DNA of 64,000 bases from Tenacibaculum discolor (GTDB lineage: Bacteria; Bacteroidota; Bacteroidia; Flavobacteriales; Flavobacteriaceae), in contig NZ_RCCS01000006.1 in the NCBI RefSeq assembly GCF_003664185.1, forward strand, positions 372,001 through 436,000, given 5' to 3'. This document shows positions 21,895-49,565 of this stretch, one piece after another; the first letter of the stretch is position 1; each line of letters begins with the position of its first letter. The translations under genes and the position numbers were made by a program. The notes beneath the pieces are model-generated. The model saw only the letters and a list, made by a program, of their open reading frames with translations, made no database searches and was not told the origin of the DNA.

Positions 21895-22692
21895 ATGAAA
21901 CAGATTAGTAGTACACAAAACGCCTATATAAAAGAGCTTTTAAAGCTTCAAGAAAAATCTAGAGAACGTAAGAAGAAAGGATTGTTTTTAGTAGAAGGAC
22001 AACGCGAAATTTCGTTAGTTGTTAAAGGAGGTTATGAAATAGACACCCTGCTGTTTGTAGCTGATATGTTTACCAAAGAAAGTGTAAACAAAATTCTAAA
22101 TAAGGCTGCTAATTGTATTGAGATAACAAAAGAGGTATACCAAAAGCTAGCCTATCGTGATACTACCGAGGGTATTATAGCTGTAGTAAAAGCTAAAAAC
22201 TTCGATTTAGAAGCTATTGAATTCAACACCACTACCCCACTCGTTTTGGTTATGGAAGGTATTGAAAAACCAGGGAATATTGGTGCTATGCTACGTACCG
22301 CCGATGCTGCTAATGTGGATGCTGTTTTTATTGCCAACCCTAAAACGGATTTATTCAATCCTAATATCATACGTTCTAGTGTGGGTTGTGTATTTACCAA
22401 TCAGATAGCTACAGGCACTTCTGAAGACATTATAGCGTACTTACAGGAGCACAACATTAATATTTACAGTGCTACCCTACAAAATTCAAACGAATACCAT
22501 AAAAACGATTATACAAAAGCTACTGCTTTGGTAGTGGGTACGGAAGCTACAGGATTAACGCAAGTTTGGCGAGACAAAGCTACTCAGAATATCAACATCC
22601 CAATGCAAGGAGAAATAGATTCTATGAATGTATCGGTTGCCGCAGCTATCTTAACTTTTGAAGCGAAGCGTCAGCGTAATTTTGTACAATAA
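21895..22692 (+). CDS. SpoU/TrmH-family RNA 2'-O-methyltransferase
   Basis: 265 aa. The N-terminal substrate-binding domain (KQISSTQNAYIKELLKLQEKSRERKKKGLFLVEGQREI) is typical of 23S rRNA methylases of this family. The C-terminal knotted SPOUT domain has its three motifs: EKPGNIGAMLRTADAA, VVGTEATGL and INIPMQGEIDSMNVSVAAAI. The exact RNA site (RlmB-like or TsnR-like) cannot be read from the sequence. Confidence 0.9.
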   Translation: MKQISSTQNAYIKELLKLQEKSRERKKKGLFLVEGQREISLVVKGGYEIDTLLFVADMFTKESVNKILNKAANCIEITKEVYQKLAYRDTTEGIIAVVKAKNFDLEAIEFNTTTPLVLVMEGIEKPGNIGAMLRTADAANVDAVFIANPKTDLFNPNIIRSSVGCVFTNQIATGTSEDIIAYLQEHNINIYSATLQNSNEYHKNDYTKATALVVGTEATGLTQVWRDKATQNINIPMQGEIDSMNVSVAAAILTFEAKRQRNFVQ

Positions 22693-22808
22693 GCTTACTT
22701 ATCAATATTAAAAAACATCTTTTTAACCGTACATTTTTGTGCGGTTTTTTATTTTGTTTTATCTTGGCTTGCGCTAATAAAAAAGAATAAAATTGCTATA
22801 GATTTCCT
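22690..22808 (+). repeat. Dispersed terminator-bearing intergenic repeat, copy 1
   Basis: Contains the hairpin ACCGTACA (22726-22733) / TGTGCGGT (22738-22745) followed by T6, then a conserved tail (ATTTTGTTTTATCTTGGCT, CGCTAATAAAAA, AATTGCTA). The same block recurs at 49342-49470 and 53345-53475 and in reduced form at 59405-59475. Here it also ends the methyltransferase transcript. Confidence 0.85.
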
Positions 22809-22919
22809 TTTTTTTTCCAAAACAAGTAAGCTTAGCAATAAATATAAAAGAACAGTAAAGGTACGCTTATACCTCCACTTTTGGCTGTATAACAATGTAT
22901 TTTACATCTATATAAACAA

Positions 22920-23681
22920 GTTGTGTGTAATTATGAAAAAACTGCTCGCAATATTAATAATATTGAATTTATTTTCTTGTAGTTCTGAATATGAAAAACG
23001 GGAAGATAAAGTTTATTATAAATTTTGGAGTTTTGGACAAGGAGGCTGGAATGAAAAAGTTGTCACAAATGCCGACTTAAAATCTTTCTCTGAAATTAAA
23101 TCCGATGATAACCTTTATGGAAAGGACAAATTCAATGTTTATTATGAAAACAAAATTATTCCAGGTGCCGATCCTAATACATTCAAGCATTTAAAAAGAG
23201 GTTATGCAATTGACAAAAATCGAGCTTATTACTATAATGATTCTATAGCAAATTCGAGCCCAAAAGAATTTGAAATAATTGACGGATATTACTCTAAAGA
23301 TTGGAAAAACGTATTTTACACTGATAAATCTTTGAATGTATGCTCTGTGAACGACTTCTCTTTTGTCTATGAAAATGAGGAAAGTTTTTTAGGACGTTGG
23401 AGTACTGATGGATGTTATTACTATTTCAACAATTACAAAATACCTTCAAATGATTACGGAAATATAGAACTATTCAAAGGAAGTGATGGAATTGCAAAAG
23501 ACTCTGAATTTATATATAACAAAGACAAAAAATATGTTCTGCCTTACGAGCGAATGGTCTTTATAAAAGAAAAAGGAATTATGATAAAAGACACGATTGA
23601 CATAAAAACATTTACCGTTGAAAATTATATCTGTAGAGATAAATTTGGACGAATAAATTGAATTTAAAAACTACACACAAC
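22920..23681. repeat. Inverted-repeat-bounded single-gene cassette around the DKNYY gene
   Basis: GTTGTGTGTA (22920-22929) directly before the start codon is the exact reverse complement of TACACACAAC (23672-23681), which lies 10 bases after the stop. The right arm is followed by AAAGTATAA and then ACGGCGGAT. The same architecture with a different arm sequence bounds the gene at 45969-46517. Confidence 0.75.
22933..23661 (+). CDS. DKNYY-family lipoprotein
   Basis: 242 aa from the ATG at 22933; the TTG four codons upstream is not needed. The lipobox is at MKKLLAILIILNLFSC. The body has repeated tyrosine-rich units (GKDKFNVYYENKIIPGADPNTFKHL, AIDKNRAYYYND, SKDWKNVFYTD), each ending with a D-x-x-x-V/A-Y-Y turn, as in the DKNYY family of surface proteins. 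The function is unknown. A larger relative is at 56742-57908. It sits inside an inverted-repeat cassette, which suggests acquisition by transfer. Confidence 0.8.
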   Translation: MKKLLAILIILNLFSCSSEYEKREDKVYYKFWSFGQGGWNEKVVTNADLKSFSEIKSDDNLYGKDKFNVYYENKIIPGADPNTFKHLKRGYAIDKNRAYYYNDSIANSSPKEFEIIDGYYSKDWKNVFYTDKSLNVCSVNDFSFVYENEESFLGRWSTDGCYYYFNNYKIPSNDYGNIELFKGSDGIAKDSEFIYNKDKKYVLPYERMVFIKEKGIMIKDTIDIKTFTVENYICRDKFGRIN

Positions 23682-23797
23682 AAAGTATAACCGCAATTAC
23701 GGCGGATAGGACAATTAGATTCTTAAAATACTAAATAACAATACATTAAAAAAATAAGGGTAATCAAAAAGGGAAAGTTACAGCCTATATAAAAAAT

Positions 23798-30827: not shown

Positions 30828-31017
30828 GCTAATATACGTTTTTTTAATTTAGTCGTTTACGGATTGTCGTATATCAAATAACTTTTTTTTACTTATTTTT
30901 AAATCATTAAGTAATTCGTTTCTTAATTAAACAATTGCTGTTTTTTCCTCTTAAAAACAAAACACATATCATAAGTTCACTCTTGTGTTGTCAACTAGTA
31001 TAAAAAAGCGAAATAAA

Positions 31018-34000
31018 ATGACTAAAAAAATTTTAGGTTTAGATTTAGGTACCAATTCAATTGGTTGGGCGTTGGTAGAAGAAGCTGAAAATAATTCGGA
31101 AGAATCAAAAATTATAAAGTTAGGAGTTAGAATAACTCCTTTAACTGTTGATGAAAAAACCGACTTTGAAAGAGGACGCCCTTTAAGTACAAATACTGAA
31201 AGAACCTTAAAGCGTGGAGCAAGAAGAAACTTACAACGGTATAAGCTAAGAAGAGAAGCTTTAATTAATGAGTTAATCAATCATAATATTATCTCAAAAG
31301 AAACTCCATTAACAGAAATAGGAAAAAATACAACGCATCAAACTTTATATCTAAGAGCTAAGGCAGCAAAAGAAGGGATTGAACTAGAGGACTTTGCAAA
31401 AATATTATTAAGTATCAATAAAAAAAGAGGTTATAAAAGTAGTAGAAAAGCAAGGAATGAAGAAGAAGGGGTCGCTATTGATGGAATGTCAATAGCAAAA
31501 GAGCTTTACGAAAATAACTTAACACCAGGAGAATATGTACTAAATTTATTAGAACAAAATAAAAAATACATTCCTGATTTTTATAAATCTGATTTACATA
31601 ATGAGTTCAATAAAATATGGGAAAATCAACAGAAGTATTATTCACAAACTCTTAACGAGCCATTATATAAAAAGCTGCAAGGAAAAAACAAAAAACAAAC
31701 ATGGGCTATTTGTAAAACTCCTTTTAACTTAGTTGGAATCACACAAAAAGGAACAGCAAATGAAAAAAGGTTAGAACGTTATCAGTGGCGCACAAAGGGA
31801 TTGACTGAAAAATTAGAACTTGAACATTTAGCTATTGTCCTTCAAGAAATTAATAATGACTTGAACAAATCGAGCGATTATTTAGGCGCAATTTCTGACA
31901 GAAGTAAAGAGTTACATTTTAAAAAAATAACCGTAGGAGAATATCTTCACCAACAAATTCAAGAAAACCCACATAACTCACTAAAAAATCAAGTTTTTTA
32001 CAGGCAAGATTATATGGATGAATTTGAAAAAATATGGTCTGTACAAACACAATTTCACAAAGAACTAACGCTGCCTTTAAAAGAAAAAATTCGAGATATT
32101 ATTATTTTTTATCAACGAAAATTAAAATCACAAAAAGGACAATTAGACTTTTGTCAGTTTGAAAGTTGGGAGCAAGAGTATGTGAACGATACAACCAATA
32201 AAAAAACGAAGAGGCGCATTGGTCGTCGTGTTGTATCTAAATCATCCCCGTTATTCCAAGAGGTTAAAATTTGGCAGATACTAAACAATCTTATTTTTTC
32301 TAATAAAAACACAGGCGACCACATTGCTATTAACGATTTAGATAGAAACATAATTGATGAAATTTTCCAAGAATTAAACCTTAGAGGTGAGCATAAAGCA
32401 GCCAGTGTACTTAAGATTCTTAAAAAGCATATAGTGCTAGGAAAGCAAAGTGATTGGAAAGCTAACCACGAAAAAATTGAAGGAAATACTACTAACAAAG
32501 CACTATATGATGTTTATCAAAAAATTGCGGAGTTAGAAGGGTATGGTTTTGATTGGGAAAAGAAAACAGCAACAGCTATTAAAGAAGAGTTAAAAGCTGT
32601 TTTTTCTGAAATAGGAATAAATCAGGATATTTTAGAATTTAACGGAATACTACAGGGTAAAAAATTTGAAAATCAGGCAAGTTATCAGTTATGGCATTTG
32701 CTTTATGCATCTGAAGAAGATTTTAACAAAGTTAGTAAAGAAGACCAAATGATTTATGGGAATAATGCTGTAAGTTTAAAGAAAAAGTTAGTTTCAAAAT
32801 TTGGTTTTAAACCTGAACATGCAAAAATGTTAGCCAGTATTTCTTTTCCTCAAGACTATGGAAATTTATCAAGCAAAGCGTTAAAAAAGATTTTACCCGA
32901 ACTTCAAAAAGGATATACTTTTTCCGAAGCCTGTAAAAATGTGGGTTATAACCACTCTAATAGTTTCACAAAAGAAGAACTTGAAAATAGAGAACTCAAA
33001 GACAAACTTGAACTCATTAAAAAAAATAGTTTAAGAAACCCCGTTGTAGAAAAAATTTTAAACCAAACTGTTAACGTAGTAAATCAAATTATAGAAACCT
33101 ACGGAAAACCTGATGAAGTACGTATAGAATTAGCTAGAGAGCTTAAAAAATCAGCTGATGAACGTAGTAAAATGACTAGGAATATTACTGAGGCAACCAA
33201 AAGAAACCAAGATATAAAAAAGCTAATCATTAAAGATTTTGGTATTCCAAATCCAACCAAAAATGATGTAATTCGTTATCGTCTTTATGAAGAACTATCA
33301 AGTAACGGGTATAAAACACTGTTTACAAACAAAAAAATAAATAAAGAAGATATTTTTTCAAAAAAAATAGATATTGAACATATTATTCCTAAAGCTTTAG
33401 TATTTGATGATTCCTTTTCAAACAAAACACTCGCATATAGAGAAGTAAATTTAGAAAAGAGTAATACTACAGCTTTCGACTTTATTAACAACAGCAATCA
33501 TTCAGGAATAGAAGACTATAAATTAAGGGTTGAGAGTTTGTATAAAGACGGAAAAATATCGCCTGCAAAAAGGAAGAAATTGTTAATTTCTAAAGAAGAT
33601 ATTTCAGATGATTTTATTGAAAGAGACCTACGAAACAGTCAGTACATCGCTAAAAAAGCAAAGGCAATGTTGTTCGAGGTATTTCCTAAAGTAGTTTCTA
33701 CCACAGGAAGTATTACTGATAAATTAAGAGAAAATTGGGATTTAATCAATGTAATGAAAGAACTTAATTTACCAAAATATCGTGCTTTAGGACTCACGGA
33801 ATATGAAGAACGCTTAAATAAAGGGACTGGAAAAATAAGGAAACATGAAGTAATAAAAGATTGGACGAAAAGAAACGACCATCGTCATCATGCAATGGAC
33901 GCTTTAACAGTTGCTTTTACCACACACAACCATATTCAATACATCAACAATTTAAGTGCTAGAAAGCTTACAAATCACAAGAAGCACAAAATTATACTAA

Positions 34001-35196
34001 ATATTGAAAATTTAATTACCGAAAACAAAAAAGGCAAACGCAAGTTTAAAGCACCCATATCTAACTTTAGAACTGAAGCAAAAAAACATATTGAAGCAAT
34101 ACTTATTTCATTTAAAAACAAAAACAAAGTAGTAACTCGTAACACAAATATTACGAAAACTAAAAATAATACCTTACAAAAAAAACAATTAACTCCTAGA
34201 GGACAATTGCATAAAGAAACTGTTTATGGAAAGATTAAACGTCCCTCTAAAAAAACGATAAAACTCAATAAAAACTTTGAGGCAAGCACTGCACAGCAAA
34301 TTGTAAATCCTGTACATAAAAAAATAGTTTTAGAACACTTAAAAACATTTGACAACAACCCAACAATTGCTTTTGATAGCAAAACACTTAAAACAAATCC
34401 GCTAATATGTAAAAATAAACCTTTCAAAGAGGTTGTTTATTTTGAAGATATTTACACTATTAGAAAAGAAGTAAATCCAGAGAATTTTAAAACACAAAAA
34501 AATATAGAAAAAGTAATTGACACAAAAACAAGACAGCTTTTAAGCCAACGTTTAAAAGACCACGATAACAATGCGATAAAAGCTTTCTCTAACCTTAAGG
34601 AAAACCCCATATGGTTGCATAAAGAAAAAGGTATTTGTATAAAAAGAGTTCGTATTACAGGTGTTAGCAACGCTAAGGCATTGCATACAAAAAAAGACCA
34701 TTTAGGAAGAGAAATTCTAAGTGAACAAGGTAACAAGCAAGCAGTTGATTTTGTTAGCACAGGAAATAACCACCATATAGCTATTTATAAAGATGCTAAA
34801 GGAAATCTGCAAGAAAAAGTAATTTCTTATTATGAAGCTGTAGCAAGAGTTAATGCTAATTTACCAGTAATTGATAAAACCTTTAAACAAAAAGAGGGTT
34901 GGCAGTTTTTATTTACCATGAAACAAAATGAAATGTTTGTTTTTCCTAATGATGATTTTGATATAAATGAAATTGATTTAATGGATGAGCAAAATACTTC
35001 AAAGATTAGTCCGCATCTGTTTAGAGTACAAAGTATAACTGAAAGAGATTATTGGTTTAGAAATCATTTAGAAACAATAGTAACTAATAATTTAGATTTT
35101 ACATATAAGCGAAAAAGAACACCTAATTCTATTAAAGATATTAAAAAAGTAAGATTAAATCATCTTGGTCAAATTGTTCAAGTAGGAGAATATTAA
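31018..35196 (+). CDS. cas9: Type II-C CRISPR RNA-guided endonuclease Cas9
   Basis: 1,392 aa from the ATG at 31018 (MTKKILGLDLGTNSIGWAL); an upstream TTG-type extension is not family-like. RuvC-I has D9 in LGLDLGTNSIGWALVE. An arginine-rich bridge helix follows (TLKRGARRNLQRYKLRREAL). RuvC-II has E704 in VRIELAREL. The HNH domain has H788 in DIEHIIPKALVFDDSFSNK (with the NLEKSN asparagine later). RuvC-III has H958 and D961 in HRHHAMDAL. All nuclease residues are present, so the enzyme should be active. The length is typical of the long Bacteroidota II-C group. A hairpin with a T run (35204-35228) separates it from cas1. Confidence 0.98.
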   Translation: MTKKILGLDLGTNSIGWALVEEAENNSEESKIIKLGVRITPLTVDEKTDFERGRPLSTNTERTLKRGARRNLQRYKLRREALINELINHNIISKETPLTEIGKNTTHQTLYLRAKAAKEGIELEDFAKILLSINKKRGYKSSRKARNEEEGVAIDGMSIAKELYENNLTPGEYVLNLLEQNKKYIPDFYKSDLHNEFNKIWENQQKYYSQTLNEPLYKKLQGKNKKQTWAICKTPFNLVGITQKGTANEKRLERYQWRTKGLTEKLELEHLAIVLQEINNDLNKSSDYLGAISDRSKELHFKKITVGEYLHQQIQENPHNSLKNQVFYRQDYMDEFEKIWSVQTQFHKELTLPLKEKIRDIIIFYQRKLKSQKGQLDFCQFESWEQEYVNDTTNKKTKRRIGRRVVSKSSPLFQEVKIWQILNNLIFSNKNTGDHIAINDLDRNIIDEIFQELNLRGEHKAASVLKILKKHIVLGKQSDWKANHEKIEGNTTNKALYDVYQKIAELEGYGFDWEKKTATAIKEELKAVFSEIGINQDILEFNGILQGKKFENQASYQLWHLLYASEEDFNKVSKEDQMIYGNNAVSLKKKLVSKFGFKPEHAKMLASISFPQDYGNLSSKALKKILPELQKGYTFSEACKNVGYNHSNSFTKEELENRELKDKLELIKKNSLRNPVVEKILNQTVNVVNQIIETYGKPDEVRIELARELKKSADERSKMTRNITEATKRNQDIKKLIIKDFGIPNPTKNDVIRYRLYEELSSNGYKTLFTNKKINKEDIFSKKIDIEHIIPKALVFDDSFSNKTLAYREVNLEKSNTTAFDFINNSNHSGIEDYKLRVESLYKDGKISPAKRKKLLISKEDISDDFIERDLRNSQYIAKKAKAMLFEVFPKVVSTTGSITDKLRENWDLINVMKELNLPKYRALGLTEYEERLNKGTGKIRKHEVIKDWTKRNDHRHHAMDALTVAFTTHNHIQYINNLSARKLTNHKKHKIILNIENLITENKKGKRKFKAPISNFRTEAKKHIEAILISFKNKNKVVTRNTNITKTKNNTLQKKQLTPRGQLHKETVYGKIKRPSKKTIKLNKNFEASTAQQIVNPVHKKIVLEHLKTFDNNPTIAFDSKTLKTNPLICKNKPFKEVVYFEDIYTIRKEVNPENFKTQKNIEKVIDTKTRQLLSQRLKDHDNNAIKAFSNLKENPIWLHKEKGICIKRVRITGVSNAKALHTKKDHLGREILSEQGNKQAVDFVSTGNNHHIAIYKDAKGNLQEKVISYYEAVARVNANLPVIDKTFKQKEGWQFLFTMKQNEMFVFPNDDFDINEIDLMDEQNTSKISPHLFRVQSITERDYWFRNHLETIVTNNLDFTYKRKRTPNSIKDIKKVRLNHLGQIVQVGEY

Positions 35197-36519: not shown

Positions 36520-36529
36520 AAACATTTAC

Positions 36530-39500
36530 CTTGTGATTGCTCACGTAAAAATACAATTTGAAATCAATTCACAACTGTAGAAGAATTGTTAAATGAAAAT
36601 GATTTCTTGTGATTGCTCACGTAAAAATACAATTTGAAATCAATTCACAACAAGACTGCTTTTTATCCATAAGCCTTTGTCCTTGTGATTGCTCACGTAA
36701 AAATACAATTTGAAATCAATTCACAACAAACAGGAGACATAGCAGCTTTAGAAGCTACTTGTGATTGCTCACGTAAAAATACAATTTGAAATCAATTCAC
36801 AACCAAGGCGTTGCAAATAATATTCAACAACTTCTTGTGATTGCTCACGTAAAAATACAATTTGAAATCAATTCACAACACACCTACAAAACCTCCTAAA
36901 GCTATATAACTTGTGATTGCTCACGTAAAAATACAATTTGAAATCAATTCACAACAAGCGCAGTTTTATAGGTATTTAGCGAGCGCTTGTGATTGCTCAC
37001 GTAAAAATACAATTTGAAATCAATTCACAACCTGTAAGAATGGAACTTTCAATACCAATAGCTTGTGATTGCTCACGTAAAAATACAATTTGAAATCAAT
37101 TCACAACTACTACGCACAGATAACCGCTACTGATGGTCTTGTGATTGCTCACGTAAAAATACAATTTGAAATCAATTCACAACAAAACAACAGAGATAGT
37201 GTCCTAGTAAATACTTGTGATTGCTCACGTAAAAATACAATTTGAAATCAATTCACAACATGAATTGTCTAAACACACTCAAAGAGACCCTTGTGATTGC
37301 TCACGTAAAAATACAATTTGAAATCAATTCACAACATGATAGGAAAACATCTAAGACGTAATTGTCTTGTGATTGCTCACGTAAAAATACAATTTGAAAT
37401 CAATTCACAACAGTTTCACTAAGCTCTCTATTTATTAATTCCTTGTGATTGCTCACGTAAAAATACAATTTGAAATCAATTCACAACTCAGAAGGTTTAG
37501 ATTCTTCCTCCACCTCTCTTGTGATTGCTCACGTAAAAATACAATTTGAAATCAATTCACAACTCCATAGGTTTTTTAGCTAAAAAAAGTTTTCTTGTGA
37601 TTGCTCACGTAAAAATACAATTTGAAATCAATTCACAACCGAGAACAATATCATCCTCAAAACCCCCACCTTGTGATTGCTCACGTAAAAATACAATTTG
37701 AAATCAATTCACAACTGGTACAGCTTTAGCATATCAGTACATATTCTTGTGATTGCTCACGTAAAAATACAATTTGAAATCAATTCACAACGTAACAAAA
37801 AACTTTACGCTAGGTGAGTGGCTTGTGATTGCTCACGTAAAAATACAATTTGAAATCAATTCACAACTCTGTTTTAACTGTTTTCGCTAGTTGATCTCTT
37901 GTGATTGCTCACGTAAAAATACAATTTGAAATCAATTCACAACACCTGGATTGTAGGGATAGAAAAAAAGTTACTTGTGATTGCTCACGTAAAAATACAA
38001 TTTGAAATCAATTCACAACATATATTTTTAAATGATTCAATAGCATAATCTTGTGATTGCTCACGTAAAAATACAATTTGAAATCAATTCACAACTTAAA
38101 TAACCTAGCCCTATCGGTAGAATAACTTGTGATTGCTCACGTAAAAATACAATTTGAAATCAATTCACAACTTATTCGGAATGCTAGTATCTTTTAGGTC
38201 ACTTGTGATTGCTCACGTAAAAATACAATTTGAAATCAATTCACAACCGCCGAGGATATAATAAAGAAAATTGAATTCTTGTGATTGCTCACGTAAAAAT
38301 ACAATTTGAAATCAATTCACAACATTGAGGTATTCCTTTAGCATCTCTTCTACCTTGTGATTGCTCACGTAAAAATACAATTTGAAATCAATTCACAACG
38401 AACGATATCTGCTATTAAACTGGTGTTTACTTGTGATTGCTCACGTAAAAATACAATTTGAAATCAATTCACAACGGATTTTGTTTTCACAGCTTTGCCT
38501 AGTGCCTTGTGATTGCTCACGTAAAAATACAATTTGAAATCAATTCACAACTACAAAAAAAAGGATAAACGAAAATATCTACTTGTGATTGCTCACGTAA
38601 AAATACAATTTGAAATCAATTCACAACGTGGACTTCTTGAAGTGCAAAGGTTTTGTTCTTGTGATTGCTCACGTAAAAATACAATTTGAAATCAATTCAC
38701 AACCTGTAAGGCAAGAACTTTCAATGCCTATCACTTGTGATTGCTCACGTAAAAATACAATTTGAAATCAATTCACAACATAAATGGTGATACAAATTTA
38801 GCAGTAACACTTGTGATTGCTCACGTAAAAATACAATTTGAAATCAATTCACAACATGTCAATGCAGTTCCTTTGTAAACTACATCTTGTGATTGCTCAC
38901 GTAAAAATACAATTTGAAATCAATTCACAACTATAACTGACGGAGACGCTCTTTGGCTACGCTTGTGATTGCTCACGTAAAAATACAATTTGAAATCAAT
39001 TCACAACGAAACAGTTGGTAAGTTGTTCGGTATGGGTCTTGTGATTGCTCACGTAAAAATACAATTTGAAATCAATTCACAACATGTTTGATAATGAATA
39101 TAAAAGAGCATTTCTTGTGATTGCTCACGTAAAAATACAATTTGAAATCAATTCACAACGAATGTTGGCAAGATACGGAAACTGATACACTTGTGATTGC
39201 TCACGTAAAAATACAATTTGAAATCAATTCACAACAGCTATCGTTTCCTTCTCATCTCTCTGTAACTTGTGATTGCTCACGTAAAAATACAATTTGAAAT
39301 CAATTCACAACAACTCAGTTATTAGTAACAAGAAAGTTTTACTTGTGATTGCTCACGTAAAAATACAATTTGAAATCAATTCACAACCCATTGTTGAAAT
39401 ACAATCCAACTCCTTCGCTTGTGATTGCTCACGTAAAAATACAATTTGAAATCAATTCACAACTACATCAATAGAGAAGATGTTATGGAAACTCTTGTGA

Positions 39501-40355
39501 TTGCTCACGTAAAAATACAATTTGAAATCAATTCACAACTAATCTAATAAAATATCTTCATAATCATTGCTTGTGATTGCTCACGTAAAAATACAATTTG
39601 AAATCAATTCACAACGGAGAAAAACTGTTAAAAGGCTTTGACTTACTTGTGATTGCTCACGTAAAAATACAATTTGAAATCAATTCACAACATATCAACT
39701 TATGATATACGTTTTAGATAGCTTGTGATTGCTCACGTAAAAATACAATTTGAAATCAATTCACAACTTGTATTAAAGTTTTTATTTTAGGTGAGTGCTT
39801 GTGATTGCTCACGTAAAAATACAATTTGAAATCAATTCACAACTAATGCTATAAACTCTTCAATTTCTAACGCTTGTGATTGCTCACGTAAAAATACAAT
39901 TTGAAATCAATTCACAACTAGAAGATGTATTAACAAGAAAGGAAGGTACTTGTGATTGCTCACGTAAAAATACAATTTGAAATCAATTCACAACGAAATA
40001 AGCCAGAACTTGCAAGTCATTTAACTTGTGATTGCTCACGTAAAAATACAATTTGAAATCAATTCACAACATGTTAGATTTTGATAATGCACTAGCCATT
40101 CTTGTGATTGCTCACGTAAAAATACAATTTGAAATCAATTCACAACAGTTGCGGACAAATAGCACTTAACCGAATACTTGTGATTGCTCACGTAAAAATA
40201 CAATTTGAAATCAATTCACAACATAAGAAGGTTTAATAAAAAAACAGAATACCTTGTGATTGCTCACGTAAAAATACAATTTGAAATCAATTCACAACAG
40301 ATTTTTAACAATATAGACAAAGGATTTGCTTGTGATTGCTCACGTAAAAATACAA
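36530..40355 (-). CRISPR. Type II-C CRISPR array: 50 intact 46-nt repeats, 50 spacers, one truncated repeat
   Basis: The plus-strand repeat begins CTTGTGATTGCTCACGTAAA and ends GAAATCAATTCACAAC. Repeats start at 36530, 36606, 36682 and every 76 bases, with one 75-base step at 39798-39873 (a 29-nt spacer). As far as I read them all 50 are identical. The 51st (40329-40355) keeps only the first 27 bases with no mismatch. Complementarity to the tracrRNA sets the crRNA sense as minus, the repeat then starting GTTGTGAATTGATTTC, so the array is read toward cas2. Two spacers (37032-37061 and 38704-38733) match each other at 22 of 30 positions. Confidence 0.99.
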
Positions 40356-40668
40356 ATAGACTTACAATACTATATATTCATGATTATTTTTATTATTTTA
40401 ATAGATAAAATAGTTTGGAAACAAAAAAGAGCATCCAAAACATGGATGCCCAATTCTCTTTACGCACAGCAATCTACGCCCCCCGCAATCGTCTGTACAT
40501 CTTGGTTAGTGGTTATTAACGTAAAGTTACTGAAATTTATTGTTTCTTGACTTATGATATCATGAAAAACATTAACCATATCACCTAATAATCACCTACT
40601 TAATAAACATTTGTTAATTCTTATTTTGACTATATTAGGATGATAAAGGGTTAATTTTTTATCTCTTT
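40356..40668. other. Array-to-mobile-element junction, no gene
   Basis: About 310 bases without a plausible gene. The first 70 are very AT-rich and would be upstream of the array in crRNA sense. A hairpin follows (see terminator at 40425-40449), then a more GC-rich stretch (40450-40510, CTACGCCCCCCGCAATCGTC) with no recognised RNA. The end of the integrative element should lie here, but I found no matching direct repeat on the other side. Confidence 0.5.
40425..40449 (-). terminator. Minus-strand terminator upstream of the CRISPR array
   Basis: On the minus strand GCATCCA (40449-40443) pairs with TGGATGC (40437-40431), followed by TCTTTTTTG. It would stop transcription from the mobile element before it enters the array. 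Confidence 0.7.
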
Positions 40669-43665: not shown

Positions 43666-44379
43666 ATGTTGAAAACCAGTTCGGAAATTTTACAGGAGCT
43701 ATTAGACCATTTAGGTATCAAAGCAAACCGCTTATCAGTAGAGATTGGAGACAATAGCAATTCTCGTATCTACTATGTAAGAAATGGAAGAAGTAAGATA
43801 AGCCCAAAGCTTGCCAAGGCGATTACTAATAGATATAAAGAGATTAACTATATGTATTTGCTTACAGGAGAGGGGGAACTTGTCAACAAGGATATTATGG
43901 TGAATACCAATGGGAATGTTTTTGTGGAAAAACCTGATGGTAGTTTTAACGTAACTACACGATTGATTCCTTTTGATGCCTATTCTTCTTTTTTAGAAAC
44001 CTTAGATGATGCAAATGTAATTTATGAGTGGGAGGAAGTAACTTTTAATGTAGAAAAGTACGGTCGTGGTAATTACGAAGCATTTAGGACTAAAAACGAT
44101 AGCATGAACGGTGGCGGGATAAATGATACACCTAACAGAGCTTTGGTATTGGGTAGAGAACTTGGACGCCATCATTGGATGGACGGATTCAACCCTACTT
44201 TATACGGATGGATTATTCTTTCTAAACACAATGTTTTTCACAAGGATATTATCGGACTGGATAAAGAAAAAGGGACGATTATTTGCCATAGTAGAAATAA
44301 AAGTCCCGAGTATTCAGATTTTGAGTTAGACCTTAATGAGGTGTATCAAATTTTTAAGGTAATTAAAAGAACGTTTTAA
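43666..44379 (+). CDS. Phage-type repressor, HTH plus S24/LexA-like C-terminal domain
   Basis: 237 aa. The N-terminal helix-turn-helix spans about residues 7-60 (EILQELLDHLGIKANRLSVEIG). The C-terminal half has the S24-like pattern with a serine in TKNDSMNGGGIND and beta strands ending GWIILSKHNVFHKDIIG. It would hold the element quiet and be inactivated on DNA damage. It is convergent with the integrase, overlapping it by four bases at the 3' ends. Confidence 0.8.
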   Translation: MLKTSSEILQELLDHLGIKANRLSVEIGDNSNSRIYYVRNGRSKISPKLAKAITNRYKEINYMYLLTGEGELVNKDIMVNTNGNVFVEKPDGSFNVTTRLIPFDAYSSFLETLDDANVIYEWEEVTFNVEKYGRGNYEAFRTKNDSMNGGGINDTPNRALVLGRELGRHHWMDGFNPTLYGWIILSKHNVFHKDIIGLDKEKGTIICHSRNKSPEYSDFELDLNEVYQIFKVIKRTF

Positions 44380-45674
44380 CCCCATGTTTGTTGCATAAAG
44401 TTAATAACACTTTCTTGGTTGGTCTTTTTATATTTGGTTAGGGTGTCTGCTTTTCGGATACCTGTAATTTTCATAATAATATGGTCGGGCATTCCTTTTT
44501 CTGATGATAGAGTAATAAAAGTTCGTCGTGCTGTATGAGTACCTATCATTTGCCATTTTTCTAGTTCTGCTGTGTGTTTTTTATTCCCGATTTTTGTTAG
44601 CTTCTTTACTGTAGTTGTTATTCCTGCTTCTTTGCATATTTTCTTTATTTCTGTATTAAATCTATTTTTTGAAATAACAGGAATGTTCCAATTATACTTT
44701 TCTAAAATAGTTGACAGCCTAGGGGTTAATGGTACAAAACTCTCATGGACTGTTTTTTGATTTCTTTTGATTATCATATCCCCATTTGGTGTTTTAACCA
44801 CATCGGATTTATTAAAAACCGAATAATCTGAAAAACGTTGTCCTGTATAAATACCCAATAAAAATATATCCCTAATTTGATTGTGCTCTTCTGTAGTGAG
44901 TTTTACTTTTTCTATCTTTTGAATTTCTACATCTGTCAAATGAACGGCATCTATATCGTATTTTTTTACTGTATTTTTCAACTCTTTTATTGTAAAACCA
45001 TAGTTGTCTCTAACCCAATCTAAAAAGGCTAAAAACACTTTGATATGTCTATGTAGAGTATTATCGTTATAGGTATTATTACTTTGAATTTGTGCGCCGA
45101 GTTCCTTTGCTTTTTGTTTATCGACCAAATTGATAAAGTCTCTTAGAAATCCACAATAGGTATCTATCCAATTCTCATTCAAGTCTCCAAATAAGGTTAC
45201 TTTGTTTCGATAATGGTCAAATAAAGCTATTTTTTTACTCATATTGTTGTAAAAATAGTCCCAAGCTTTCGAAGTATCTTTACGCTTCTTTTTTGACTCC
45301 ATAAAAACCTTGATAGCTTCACTTACTACATAAGGCAATTCGTCACTTTTATAATTATATTTAAACTCCTTATCAAAAACACTTCGCAATGCTGATTTGG
45401 TCAAAGGAATATTTTTTTGCTGATATTCAGAAATCGTATGCTGTAATAGCTTTTTATAGTTGTCTAAGATTAACGCGATTTGTTTATTCTTTTTTCCAAT
45501 TGCTCCTCGTTTTACTTTTGGATAACGGGTAGAAAAATCCCACTCTATTGGGTTTATTTTTTGTTTTGTACTATATTTAAAATTCTTATTGCTCGTCGGT
45601 TCATCTTTTGCATAGAAAATTAAATCGATTGCCGTTACTACTTCTCCTTTGGGTTTCTTTAAATAAAAATACAT
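44376..45674 (-). CDS. Tyrosine recombinase / site-specific integrase
   Basis: 432 aa. The N-terminal arm-binding domain and SAM-like core-binding domain (about residues 100-220) precede the catalytic domain. Visible catalytic residues are R in YTGQRFSDYS, the HxxR box in THTARRTF and the nucleophile Y415 in TLTKYKK. This is the Bacteroidota integrase type of integrative elements. Its promoter would be in the 45675-45830 stretch. Confidence 0.93.
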   Translation of the reverse strand: MYFYLKKPKGEVVTAIDLIFYAKDEPTSNKNFKYSTKQKINPIEWDFSTRYPKVKRGAIGKKNKQIALILDNYKKLLQHTISEYQQKNIPLTKSALRSVFDKEFKYNYKSDELPYVVSEAIKVFMESKKKRKDTSKAWDYFYNNMSKKIALFDHYRNKVTLFGDLNENWIDTYCGFLRDFINLVDKQKAKELGAQIQSNNTYNDNTLHRHIKVFLAFLDWVRDNYGFTIKELKNTVKKYDIDAVHLTDVEIQKIEKVKLTTEEHNQIRDIFLLGIYTGQRFSDYSVFNKSDVVKTPNGDMIIKRNQKTVHESFVPLTPRLSTILEKYNWNIPVISKNRFNTEIKKICKEAGITTTVKKLTKIGNKKHTAELEKWQMIGTHTARRTFITLSSEKGMPDHIIMKITGIRKADTLTKYKKTNQESVINFMQQTWG

Positions 45675-45944
45675 ACCTTTATTTTTTTACAAACATAACA
45701 AAAAAAGGGAAACAAACAGGGAAAGTAAAATTGTATTTAACTGTGATTTAGGGAAACAACCAAAAACAATAAAAACACATAAAACACTGATAATGTTTAC
45801 ATTTACAAACAAAACAAATAATCATAAACAACATAGCGCGAACACGGCGGATTCGACTACGTCCGAATCCACTCGGTAATTACTAATACTAGTTCTTAAA
45901 CAAAATATGTAACTTTAATCCCGTAACAACAGTTATACAAATAC
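45675..45944. other. Intergenic region with cassette-end signature
   Basis: No gene. The first 150 bases are AT-rich and repeat AAACAA words. At 45838-45875 the sequence GCGCGAACACGGCGGATTCG is followed by a hairpin, GGATTCG (45850-45856) with CGAATCC (45864-45870). The word ACGGCGGAT is shared with the end of the cassette at 23699-23707, so this looks like the right end of a lost or neighbouring cassette, or the edge of the integrative element. Confidence 0.5.
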
Positions 45945-46533
45945 GTTGTAGCACATTTAAAAAAACCTATGGCAACATACCAATTTCTAACCTTTGTACT
46001 TCCAAGAAAGTCAATTGAAAACAAATATGGCGAAATTCCAAAACAACTTGAAATGAAACACGCTGAATGGGAAAAGTATTGGAACAATTGGAATATGGAA
46101 CTGAATAAAGTACCAGAACCTGAATTTGAAGATGCGATTTCAACGAAATGGTGGAAAGGAATCCAGATTAACATTGCGGAATTAAGAAATGAAATTGACA
46201 AAATTATTCCAAGAGCTACGTGGAATAATGAAAGTTGGAAAATTGAAAACGGAGAAGTTGACCACGATTTGAGTATTGACTATAATGAAAAGGAGAATTT
46301 TATAGAAGATTTTAGATTTCGGACTGATTTAAGAGATTCGAAACTGGATTTCTTAAATTCAATGCTGGAATTATGCAACCGAAATGATTGGATTTTAATG
46401 GACGAAAACGGAAATTTAAGCGAACCAAAAATTGAAAGTTTAGCTGAATTAATTAAAGAATCTCGAGCTCACATGTTTATTACAAATCCAGAAGAATTTT
46501 ATAACACTTTAAAATAAAAAAACGTGCTACAAC
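45945..46533. repeat. Inverted-repeat-bounded single-gene cassette
   Basis: GTTGTAGCAC (45945-45954) is the exact reverse complement of GTGCTACAAC (46524-46533). The arms flank one gene only. The right arm runs into ACCGTATAA, close to the AAAGTATAA after the cassette at 23672. Confidence 0.78.
45969..46517 (+). CDS. Hypothetical protein in inverted-repeat cassette
   Basis: 182 aa, ATG start 14 bases after the left arm. It is rich in tryptophan and acidic residues (KHAEWEKYWNNWNMELNKVPEPEFED, STKWWKGIQINIAELRNEIDKIIPRATW) and has no signal or membrane segment. No known domain is recognised. It looks like a cytoplasmic, helical, all-soluble protein of the kind often found as single-gene cargo. 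Confidence 0.7.
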   Translation: MATYQFLTFVLPRKSIENKYGEIPKQLEMKHAEWEKYWNNWNMELNKVPEPEFEDAISTKWWKGIQINIAELRNEIDKIIPRATWNNESWKIENGEVDHDLSIDYNEKENFIEDFRFRTDLRDSKLDFLNSMLELCNRNDWILMDENGNLSEPKIESLAELIKESRAHMFITNPEEFYNTLK

Positions 46534-46581
46534 ACCGTATAAAATTAATTGCTAGTGCAAACCTACTATAACAAAATAAAT

Positions 46582-47190
46582 ATGAATACAGTAATTGAAA
46601 AATATATAAACGGACTTAAAAAAGCATATTTAGAAAATAATGGACAGGAGGATTGGGAGCATTTTGAAAAAGTTATACACGGTTCTGAAAAAGTAAATAT
46701 TGATAGGTTAAAACAAATTTATCCTGATATCCCAGATACTTTAATTGACTTACTTGAATACGTTGATGGAACATATTGGCGGAAATATGGAAACGAGGAA
46801 ATCTCCTTTTTTATTTTAGGTTCTGATGTTAATGAATACCCCTATTACCTATTATCTTCTAAAGAAATAGTTGAAAATCAAAGTAAAGCAAAAGAATACT
46901 ATTCAGATTATATTGAAAGAAAATACGAAGGAGTTGATATAGACGAAAAAATAACCAATAATTCGGAGGTTGTTAAGTGGCTTCACTTTTCTGATTGCAT
47001 GAATAATGGTGGAACTTCTCAATTATTTATAGATTTCAGTCCTTCTGAAAAAGGAAAAAAAGGACAAATAGTAAGGTTTTTGCACGATCCAGATGAATTC
47101 AAAGTAATAGCCGATAGCTTTGACGAGTACTTAGAAAAATTAATAAATAATGACTATAACTTTATTAATGAGGATATAATGGAGTTTTAA
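46582..47190 (+). CDS. SMI1/KNR4 (SUKH) family protein
   Basis: 202 aa from the ATG at 46582; the frame is open to a TTG at 46549 but the ATG fits the family. The SUKH pattern is visible: IDRLKQIYPDIPDTLIDLLEYVDGTYW at the start, FFILGSDVNEYPYYLLSSKEIVE in the centre, FSDCMNNGGTSQLFIDFSPS and the C-terminal FDEYLEKLIN. SUKH proteins often serve as immunity proteins against contact-dependent nuclease toxins, but no toxin gene is adjacent here, so the role is open. Confidence 0.85.
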   Translation: MNTVIEKYINGLKKAYLENNGQEDWEHFEKVIHGSEKVNIDRLKQIYPDIPDTLIDLLEYVDGTYWRKYGNEEISFFILGSDVNEYPYYLLSSKEIVENQSKAKEYYSDYIERKYEGVDIDEKITNNSEVVKWLHFSDCMNNGGTSQLFIDFSPSEKGKKGQIVRFLHDPDEFKVIADSFDEYLEKLINNDYNFINEDIMEF

Positions 47191-47292
47191 ATAACAGTAT
47201 ACAAATAATATATAAAAGCAGTAATGCGATTACTGAAGTCACAACTAACGGTTATACTAAACCGTTCCCTACAACTTAAAAATAGCTTATAA

Positions 47293-47853
47293 ATGAATGA
47301 TAAAAAGAAAATAATTGGAATTTGTGGGAGTGCCAGTCGAAACTCTGCAAACCTGACAATTCTAAAATACATAGCAGAATCCCAAAAGTCAGAATTCGAC
47401 TTTGAAATGATAGAAGATTTAACCGAATTCCCACATTTTAGAACTGAATTGACTGATAAAAATGTTCCTGAGAAAATCGTAGACTTCAGAAATAAAATAT
47501 TAAGCGCAGATGGAATTATTATTTGTACACCTGAATATGTTTTCAGCATACCAAGTAGGCTGAAAAATATTTTGGAGTGGTGTGTCTCGACAACTGTATT
47601 TTCTGATAAACCAATCGGACTAATAACTGCTTCGGCAAGTGGAGAAAAAGGACACCAAGAGTTAAAACTAATTATGGAAACTATACAGACTATATTTACC
47701 GAAGACACTACCCTATTAATAAAAGGGATAAAAAGTAAAGTTTCTAAAGAAGGAAAAATAACTGATAAAAAAACAGAAACTGAATTACAAAAACTTATTA
47801 AGTCTTTTAAAGAATTAATAAAAAAGCCAGCAAGTAACATCGTGTATAATTAA
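47293..47853 (+). CDS. NADPH-dependent FMN reductase family protein
   Basis: 186 aa. The flavodoxin-like start IIGICGSASRNSANLTILKYI carries the FMN phosphate-binding G-S-x-R-x-x-S loop, and ICTPEYVFSIPSRLKNILEW matches the second flavin-contacting motif (PEYxxSxPxxLKNxLDW). Probably a dimeric quinone, azo or chromate-type reductase. Confidence 0.92.
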   Translation: MNDKKKIIGICGSASRNSANLTILKYIAESQKSEFDFEMIEDLTEFPHFRTELTDKNVPEKIVDFRNKILSADGIIICTPEYVFSIPSRLKNILEWCVSTTVFSDKPIGLITASASGEKGHQELKLIMETIQTIFTEDTTLLIKGIKSKVSKEGKITDKKTETELQKLIKSFKELIKKPASNIVYN

Positions 47854-49341: not shown

Positions 49342-49470
49342 AATGGATTCAAAATTCACCTATCACAGCTCAAAAACACCATTTTAACCGTACATTTTTG
49401 TACGGTTTTTTATTTTGTTTTATCTTGGCTAACGCTAATAAAAAAACAAAAATTGCTAAAAACTTCCGCT
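49342..49470 (+). repeat. Dispersed terminator-bearing intergenic repeat, copy 2
   Basis: ACCGTACA (49387-49394) pairs perfectly with TGTACGGT (49399-49406), then T6 and the conserved tail ATTTTGTTTTATCTTGGCT. Upstream, GATTCAAAATTCACCTATCA matches copy 3. It ends the hydrolase transcript. Confidence 0.88.
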
Positions 49471-49565
49471 TATCATACCATAAAAGGAATATAACAGTAA
49501 ATTTATTCTGTATATAAACTAGTAGTAGCAATACATTCTAAATTCAGGTAAGAAATAACCCACTT

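Follow-up and report, generated by a model that had tools for sequence, protein, structure and literature searches.

Single-gene cassettes of Tenacibaculum discolor very probably belong to an integron-like system whose integrases lack I2

Two single-gene units, called here copies A and B, lie in a window of 64,000 nt of the genome of Tenacibaculum discolor (contig NZ_RCCS01000006.1, positions 372,001 to 436,000), which is the whole stretch of DNA analysed. They are very probably (about 0.93) gene cassettes of an integron-type system run by an integrase without I2. The arms that flank each gene are the R' and R'' halves of the cassette's own attC site. This integron-like capture system occurs across the Flavobacteriaceae and related bacteria; it works like an integron, yet it fails one of the tests that define IntI.

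Copies A and B in the window

Copy A is found beside a trmH gene, in the following arrangement.

21895..22692 (+): trmH-like rRNA methyltransferase gene (SpoU family, by Pfam), the gene that anchors the platform in this genus
22885..22919 (+): attI-like site ending ...TATATAAACAA, directly left of copy A, recognized by its likeness to the relative G442
22920..22930 (+): left arm of copy A, R', that is GTTGTGTGTA (22920-22929) and an A at the mismatch position
22933..23661 (+): gene of copy A, encoding a putative lipoprotein with a DKNYY domain (Pfam PF13644, E 4.5e-29; reading frame)
23671..23681 (+): right arm of copy A, a C at the mismatch position and R'', that is TACACACAAC (23672-23681)
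23682..23775 (+): decayed attC of copy A, with an AAA spacer and L'' GTATAACCGCAATTACGGCGGAT but no intact L'

The decayed attC starts in the same way as an intact attC of an array (AAT GTATAACCGCAATTACGGCGGATTCG...). The stretch 22885-22922 is identical at 37 of 38 nt to the sequence 3' of the intact integrase of G442, the relative whose trmH is most like that of the window. In the same genus, G434 carries trmH, an intact integrase, attI and a cassette in that order, and G443 carries trmH, a C-terminal remnant of the integrase, attI and the start of a cassette; in the window, 228 nt devoid of an integrase separate trmH from the attI-like site. Neither the window nor the other sampled loci of its genome yielded an integrase remnant. 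A cassette-type integrase is absent from that genome, whose remaining recombinases are Xer-like only. The trmH loci of the relatives and the attI match make copy A most likely the first cassette of a platform, now dead, that lies beside trmH and would have lost its integrase. Since the genome has no such enzyme, copies A and B are probably immobile and inert now.

Near-copies of the leader of copy A precede cassettes at several other places in the genome. Nearly the same attI-like 35-mer, which in the window ends at 22919, stands before cassettes at C1:48070, C4:75820, C3:124840, C3:132107 and C7:98408 (contigs of this genome, G000). About 200 nt of leader are common to four such places, and repeats of the CATGCCGTGATATCAGCGACC type precede three of the four. 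In the window itself, 22711-22808 and 49371-49467 are near-identical blocks (89%) with a terminator-like hairpin, and the second block is followed, near 49519, by an attI-like relic in which TATATAAACTA reads across the joint into GTAGTAGC. Elsewhere, a large CRISPR array (36529-40360), with repeats of about 47 nt of the TTGTGATTGCTCACGTAAAAATACAATTTGAAATCAATTCACAAC type, lies near an ORF of 1403 aa (30985-35196) which probably encodes Cas9.

The surroundings of copy B are of another kind.

45827..45947 (+): attC remnant, ending GTTATACAAATACGTT, of a cassette that once preceded copy B and is now lost (27.9 bits with covariance model R1, E 0.0011)
45945..45955 (+): left arm of copy B, R', that is GTTGTAGCAC (45945-45954) and an A
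45969..46517 (+): gene of copy B, 182 aa, with no Pfam match
46523..46533 (+): right arm of copy B, a C and R'', that is GTGCTACAAC (46524-46533)
46534..46575 (+): truncated attC of copy B (ACC spacer, GTATAA...), a related type being present in the genome G242 at 2102371
46582..47190 (+): SMI1/KNR4 gene (Pfam), between attC remnants, a probable decayed cassette
47146..47266 (+): second attC remnant (...GTTATACTAAACCGTT), 5' of the FMN reductase gene (model R1, 27.3 bits, E 0.0015)
47293..47853 (+): FMN reductase gene (Pfam), a probable decayed cassette whose arm match is lost

The two attC remnants (45827-45947 and 47146-47266) are both weak matches of the covariance model. A cassette protein of G242 is 69% identical to that of copy B and its cassette has identical arms. 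The left flank of copy B ends with GTTATACAAATAC directly before GTTGT, which mirrors ACAAC, ACC and GTATAA of the right flank. Copy B is a relic of a decayed array. A phage-type integrase of 432 aa (44376-45674, minus strand) is encoded 270 nt from copy B; it was rejected as a cassette integrase, as it scores 33 bits against the nearest family, and it probably belongs to another mobile element.

The arms match within a cassette

In copies A and B the two arms are perfect complements and both right arms continue into nnnGTATAA, as the sequence-only reading of this DNA had described. A 10-nt arm pair within the window alone is weak evidence. Under the arm rule, by which a cassette starts with GTTN7A and ends with CN7AAC, the window (tested within 3.5 kb) contains 4 pairs, compared to 1.6 in shuffles. 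The pairs become significant through their context: in 2.3 Mb of related loci, 411 GTTN7A...CN7AAC pairs flank one gene, against 2 in each of two scrambled controls, and the genome of the window has at least six further matched cassettes outside it. These counts bear out the earlier proposal of single-gene cassettes with gene-specific matched arms, and supply the further instances whose absence had been named as an argument against it. The literal GTTGT/ACAAC-GTATAA pattern that had been suggested as a search key proved unsuitable: ACAACNNNGTATAA is not enriched, GTATAA being one site type only, and neither is ACAACnnnGTATAA, of which the genome has only four occurrences, two of them apparently within genes. 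Rfam gave no match in the window.

The match obeys a rule beyond its first ten positions. Of 47 matched cassettes, 43 have an A opposite a C at position 11 and 45 are paired again at position 12; copies A and B both follow this rule. In the array loci, the own arms match over 7 nt or more in 48 of 84 cassette intervals (over 9 or 10 nt in 47 of these), whereas shuffled pairings reach this length in 6% and linear neighbours in 6 of 98. Nearly all short intervals match; the long ones mostly hold missed sites. Orthologous cassettes often carry the same arms; where the arms of orthologues differ, a change on one side is in some cases compensated on the other (e.g., GTTACCACCA / GTTGCCACCA, for proteins that are 81% identical), which supports the selected pairing of the two ends that had been put forward.

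The R' boxes depart from the consensus GTTRRRY, with GTTR in 406 of 416 cassettes, mostly T, G or C at position 5 and any base at position 7. The class 1 aadA2 cassette used as a control, the one clear cassette that this control yielded, has an own-arm match of 12 nt, without the conserved A opposite C at position 11. The earlier statement that the arms do not fit standard attC has to be withdrawn, as the arms are R' and R'' boxes and the class 1 cassette also matches its own arms; the sequence-only reading had missed the hairpin site, attI, the integrase and the rule for positions 11 and 12.

Hairpin sites and arrays in related genomes

The flank pattern of copy B, with 2 mismatches allowed, matches in 2 of 149 genomes. 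A looser L'-R' search across the family (GTTATACN5CGTTGT) gave genomes with many copies on the same strand, which revealed arrays. In the complete genome G242, an array runs from about 2,066 to 2,107 kb and further, with single genes between elements of about 125 nt of the form AAC-n3-GTATAAC...GTTATAC-n6-GTT. The cassettes stand head to tail and are joined at GTT, each ending with CN7AAC and then a hairpin of about 100-135 nt (L''...L'). The start and the end of one cassette match, whereas those of one linear element usually do not. The array of G101 (L047, L048) contains duplicated blocks, in which cassettes with identical arms recur at a distance of about 6.8 kb, as well as a stretch of N.

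For 36 diverse elements that were aligned, the pairs of the named structure (AAC/GTT, L stem and inner stem) are formed in 88.9% of cells, compared to 76.9% after shuffling. The covariation of the hairpin is 0.288, above all 500 shuffles (mean 0.090) and above slid versions (maximum 0.099). The core of the L stem, GTATAAC, is near-invariant in this set, which was chosen by that core, and the evidence from covariation therefore comes from the inner end of the L stem and from the second stem. The elements have the imperfect palindrome R''-L''...L'-R' and the conserved structure of attC sites. With the covariance model, as many as 98 hairpin sites were counted in one genome and 440 in 0.7 Mb, the array loci having been selected for having sites. 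The stem sequences differ in other hosts, as illustrated by AAATTGGC...GCCAATTT in a tet(X) cassette.

An integrase without I2

Tyrosine recombinases adjoin the cassette arrays in relatives, but not in the genome of the window. In many loci the first cassette, whose start matches the first downstream end, begins 23-178 nt 3' of the integrase stop. A conserved attI-like site follows this stop, next to the integrase as in integrons; it has the form ...GATATAACnA or ...TATATAAACAA, each reading directly into GTT. A matched arm of 10 nt is present on the first cassette in 13 of 30 loci of relatives (0.5 expected) and in 9 of 21 further genomes (0.2 expected), and in 0 of 35 cases for more distant tyrosine recombinases. 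Integrase, attI and matched first cassette occur together in Zunongwangia mangrovi, Flavobacterium aciduliphilum, Winogradskyella ursingii and Seonamhaeicola aphaedonensis, and also in an Aquiflexum, a Rufibacter and a Cyclobacterium MAG. One MAG labelled Spirochaetota likewise has all three, but MAG labels can be wrong. Integrase and array are sometimes apart, the main array of G101 being about 30 kb or more away.

The integrase is a tyrosine recombinase of about 300-490 aa, usually with an N-terminal extension, and the nearest neighbours of its catalytic region, in sequence and in fold, are Xer and XerA. Scored with the integron-integrase model (TIGR02249, cut-off 265), the cassette integrases reach 187-228 bits, and true IntI reach 272-488 in the same scan. 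The spacing from KDR to HxxR is 57-63 residues in 33 of the enzymes and 56-66 in Xer, against 100-101 in seven IntI. All 33 enzymes measured lack I2, the patch III insert which together with a score above the TIGR02249 cut-off characterizes IntI, and in a comparison with PDB structures the residues of VchIntI that correspond to I2 stay unmatched. The I2 helix has been regarded as necessary for cassette capture and as the innovation that gave rise to integrons (PMC7790495).

Most I2-less enzymes carry an N-terminal domain of some 75 residues (model pLDDT 84.6), with a weak Foldseek likeness to YciH and XPB (damage-recognition domain) and, lower, to SMARCAL1 HARP; the fold search gave no match below E 0.001. 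In a quick tree, canonical IntI form one clade (97) and the enzymes without I2 another (60, weak support). With a group support of 60, the latter may have originated independently or may have branched off early.

Probable mobility of a tet(X) cassette and uptake of aph(3')-IVb

The tetracycline/tigecycline-inactivating gene tet(X), which has been traced to Flavobacteriaceae, forms a cassette whose own arms (GTTATGTGCC/GGCACATAAC) match perfectly in five genomes of a sister family within the same order (L290-L294; cassette from about 1483 in the orientation of the gene). The five cassettes are 96-100% identical from the initial GTTATGTGCC through the own hairpin to the final ...CCAAAC. Identity is 42-47% in the 60 nt to the left of GTT, compared to 96-100% over 1200 nt to the right; the neighbours are three different attC on the left and five different cassettes on the right, and all joints are at GTT. 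The comparison of these contexts points to a precise, GTT-bounded mobility, as in integrons. On an Acinetobacter plasmid (L285:4889-6098), tet(X3) directly follows TpnF, a truncated integrase of the I2-less family (47% identical to it over the matched stretch), and its arms match in only 7 of 10 positions.

In Riemerella anatipestifer, aph(3')-IVb inserts without homology by natural transformation, always together with 27 bp of upstream and 140 bp of attC-like downstream DNA (2026, PMC13148043). The authors of that study describe the mechanism as unknown and name no integrase, attI or matched arms (PMC13148043). Judging by the published description, this uptake resembles the system described here and would fit it.

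Proposed mechanism and alternative explanations

By analogy with integrons, an excised cassette would close into a circle, in which its own R' meets its own R'', and the two would complete a fully paired attC hairpin. This meeting would account for the match of the seven variable bases inside each cassette and for its absence between neighbours. The integrase would then recombine one strand of the folded attC with attI or with another attC at the conserved GTT, so that no longer homology would be needed. We infer the recombination and the use of folded single strands; these ideas, like those on circular intermediates, on the choice of strand and on what the A opposite C does, come from integron biology.

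As in integrons, a tyrosine integrase adjoins an attI-like site, the single-gene cassettes share one orientation and are joined at GTT, their attC sites are hairpins that have R and L boxes, and R' matches R'' within a cassette. The integrase differs in that it lacks I2 and stays below the integron-integrase cut-off, and in Flavobacteriaceae its gene mostly points to the array; the arms differ in having 7 variable bases after GTT and, at position 11, a conserved A opposite C. Superintegrons of the Vibrio type are also large sedentary arrays with tens of cassettes, but their recombinase is of another lineage, and here the site sequence varies between hosts.

The alternative that survives best, although it is unlikely, is Xer-type recombination of double strands, in which the arms would be inverted double-stranded core sites like those of dif or pdif modules. 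The catalytic region resembles Xer/XerA in its length and is closest to them in sequence and fold, but the enzymes considered here are linked to attI and cassette arrays and not to a dif site. Sites of the dif type are conserved half-sites, whereas 166 distinct arms occur among 416 cassettes: seven arm bases vary between cassettes, partner sites have little in common beyond GTT, and the L stem and inner stem covary despite sequences that differ between sites.

It is much less probable that the cassettes are ordinary integron remnants (CALINs), moved in trans by a canonical IntI with I2 or by one that has since been lost. CALINs are common in bacteria (PMC9668308), their cassette logic is alike and the canonical class 1 cassette also shows an own-arm match. 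However, no IntI above the curated cut-off was found in 25 genomes, array-rich ones included, the recombinase at attI lacks I2 in every case measured, and the class 1 control does not have the conserved A opposite C of position 11. Moreover, for Bacteroidetes proper IntegronFinder 2.0 lists one complete integron, that of Salinibacter (PMC9024848).

A pairing of the arms in mRNA, as 5'-3' closing stems or terminators which protect single-gene transcripts, is hardly credible. The arms do lie just outside the coding sequence and RNA folding would give equal covariation, but they are also the sharp borders of a mobile unit, 3' of an attI-like site. The covariation of arms and hairpins fits pairing in DNA or RNA alike; we favour DNA because of the joints at GTT and the attI context. 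Lastly, ends of an insertion sequence or small transposon would also enclose one gene between inverted arms, but this explanation is negligible, as the arms are gene-specific rather than terminal repeats in common around a transposase, the cargo is DKNYY, SMI1/KNR4, FMN reductase or unknown genes, and the units stand head to tail in arrays.

Implications of a probable integron without I2

No paper describing a cassette system without I2 was found in the literature searched. For the origin of the integron-like system, we lean towards the view that a separate lineage of Bacteroidota tyrosine recombinases built a working integron without I2, either before the appearance of I2 or independently of IntI. 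The role of I2 would be taken by another element, possibly the N-terminal domain reading the A opposite C, and within Flavobacteriales the system would have made tet(X) and other resistance genes mobile. The presence of a full integron anatomy with integrases devoid of I2 means that the necessity of I2 can be put to a direct test. A large reservoir of cassettes would escape surveys keyed to IntI with its specific domain and to standard attC sites. The system also offers a mechanism for the mobilization of tet(X) and for the homology-free uptake of resistance genes by Riemerella.
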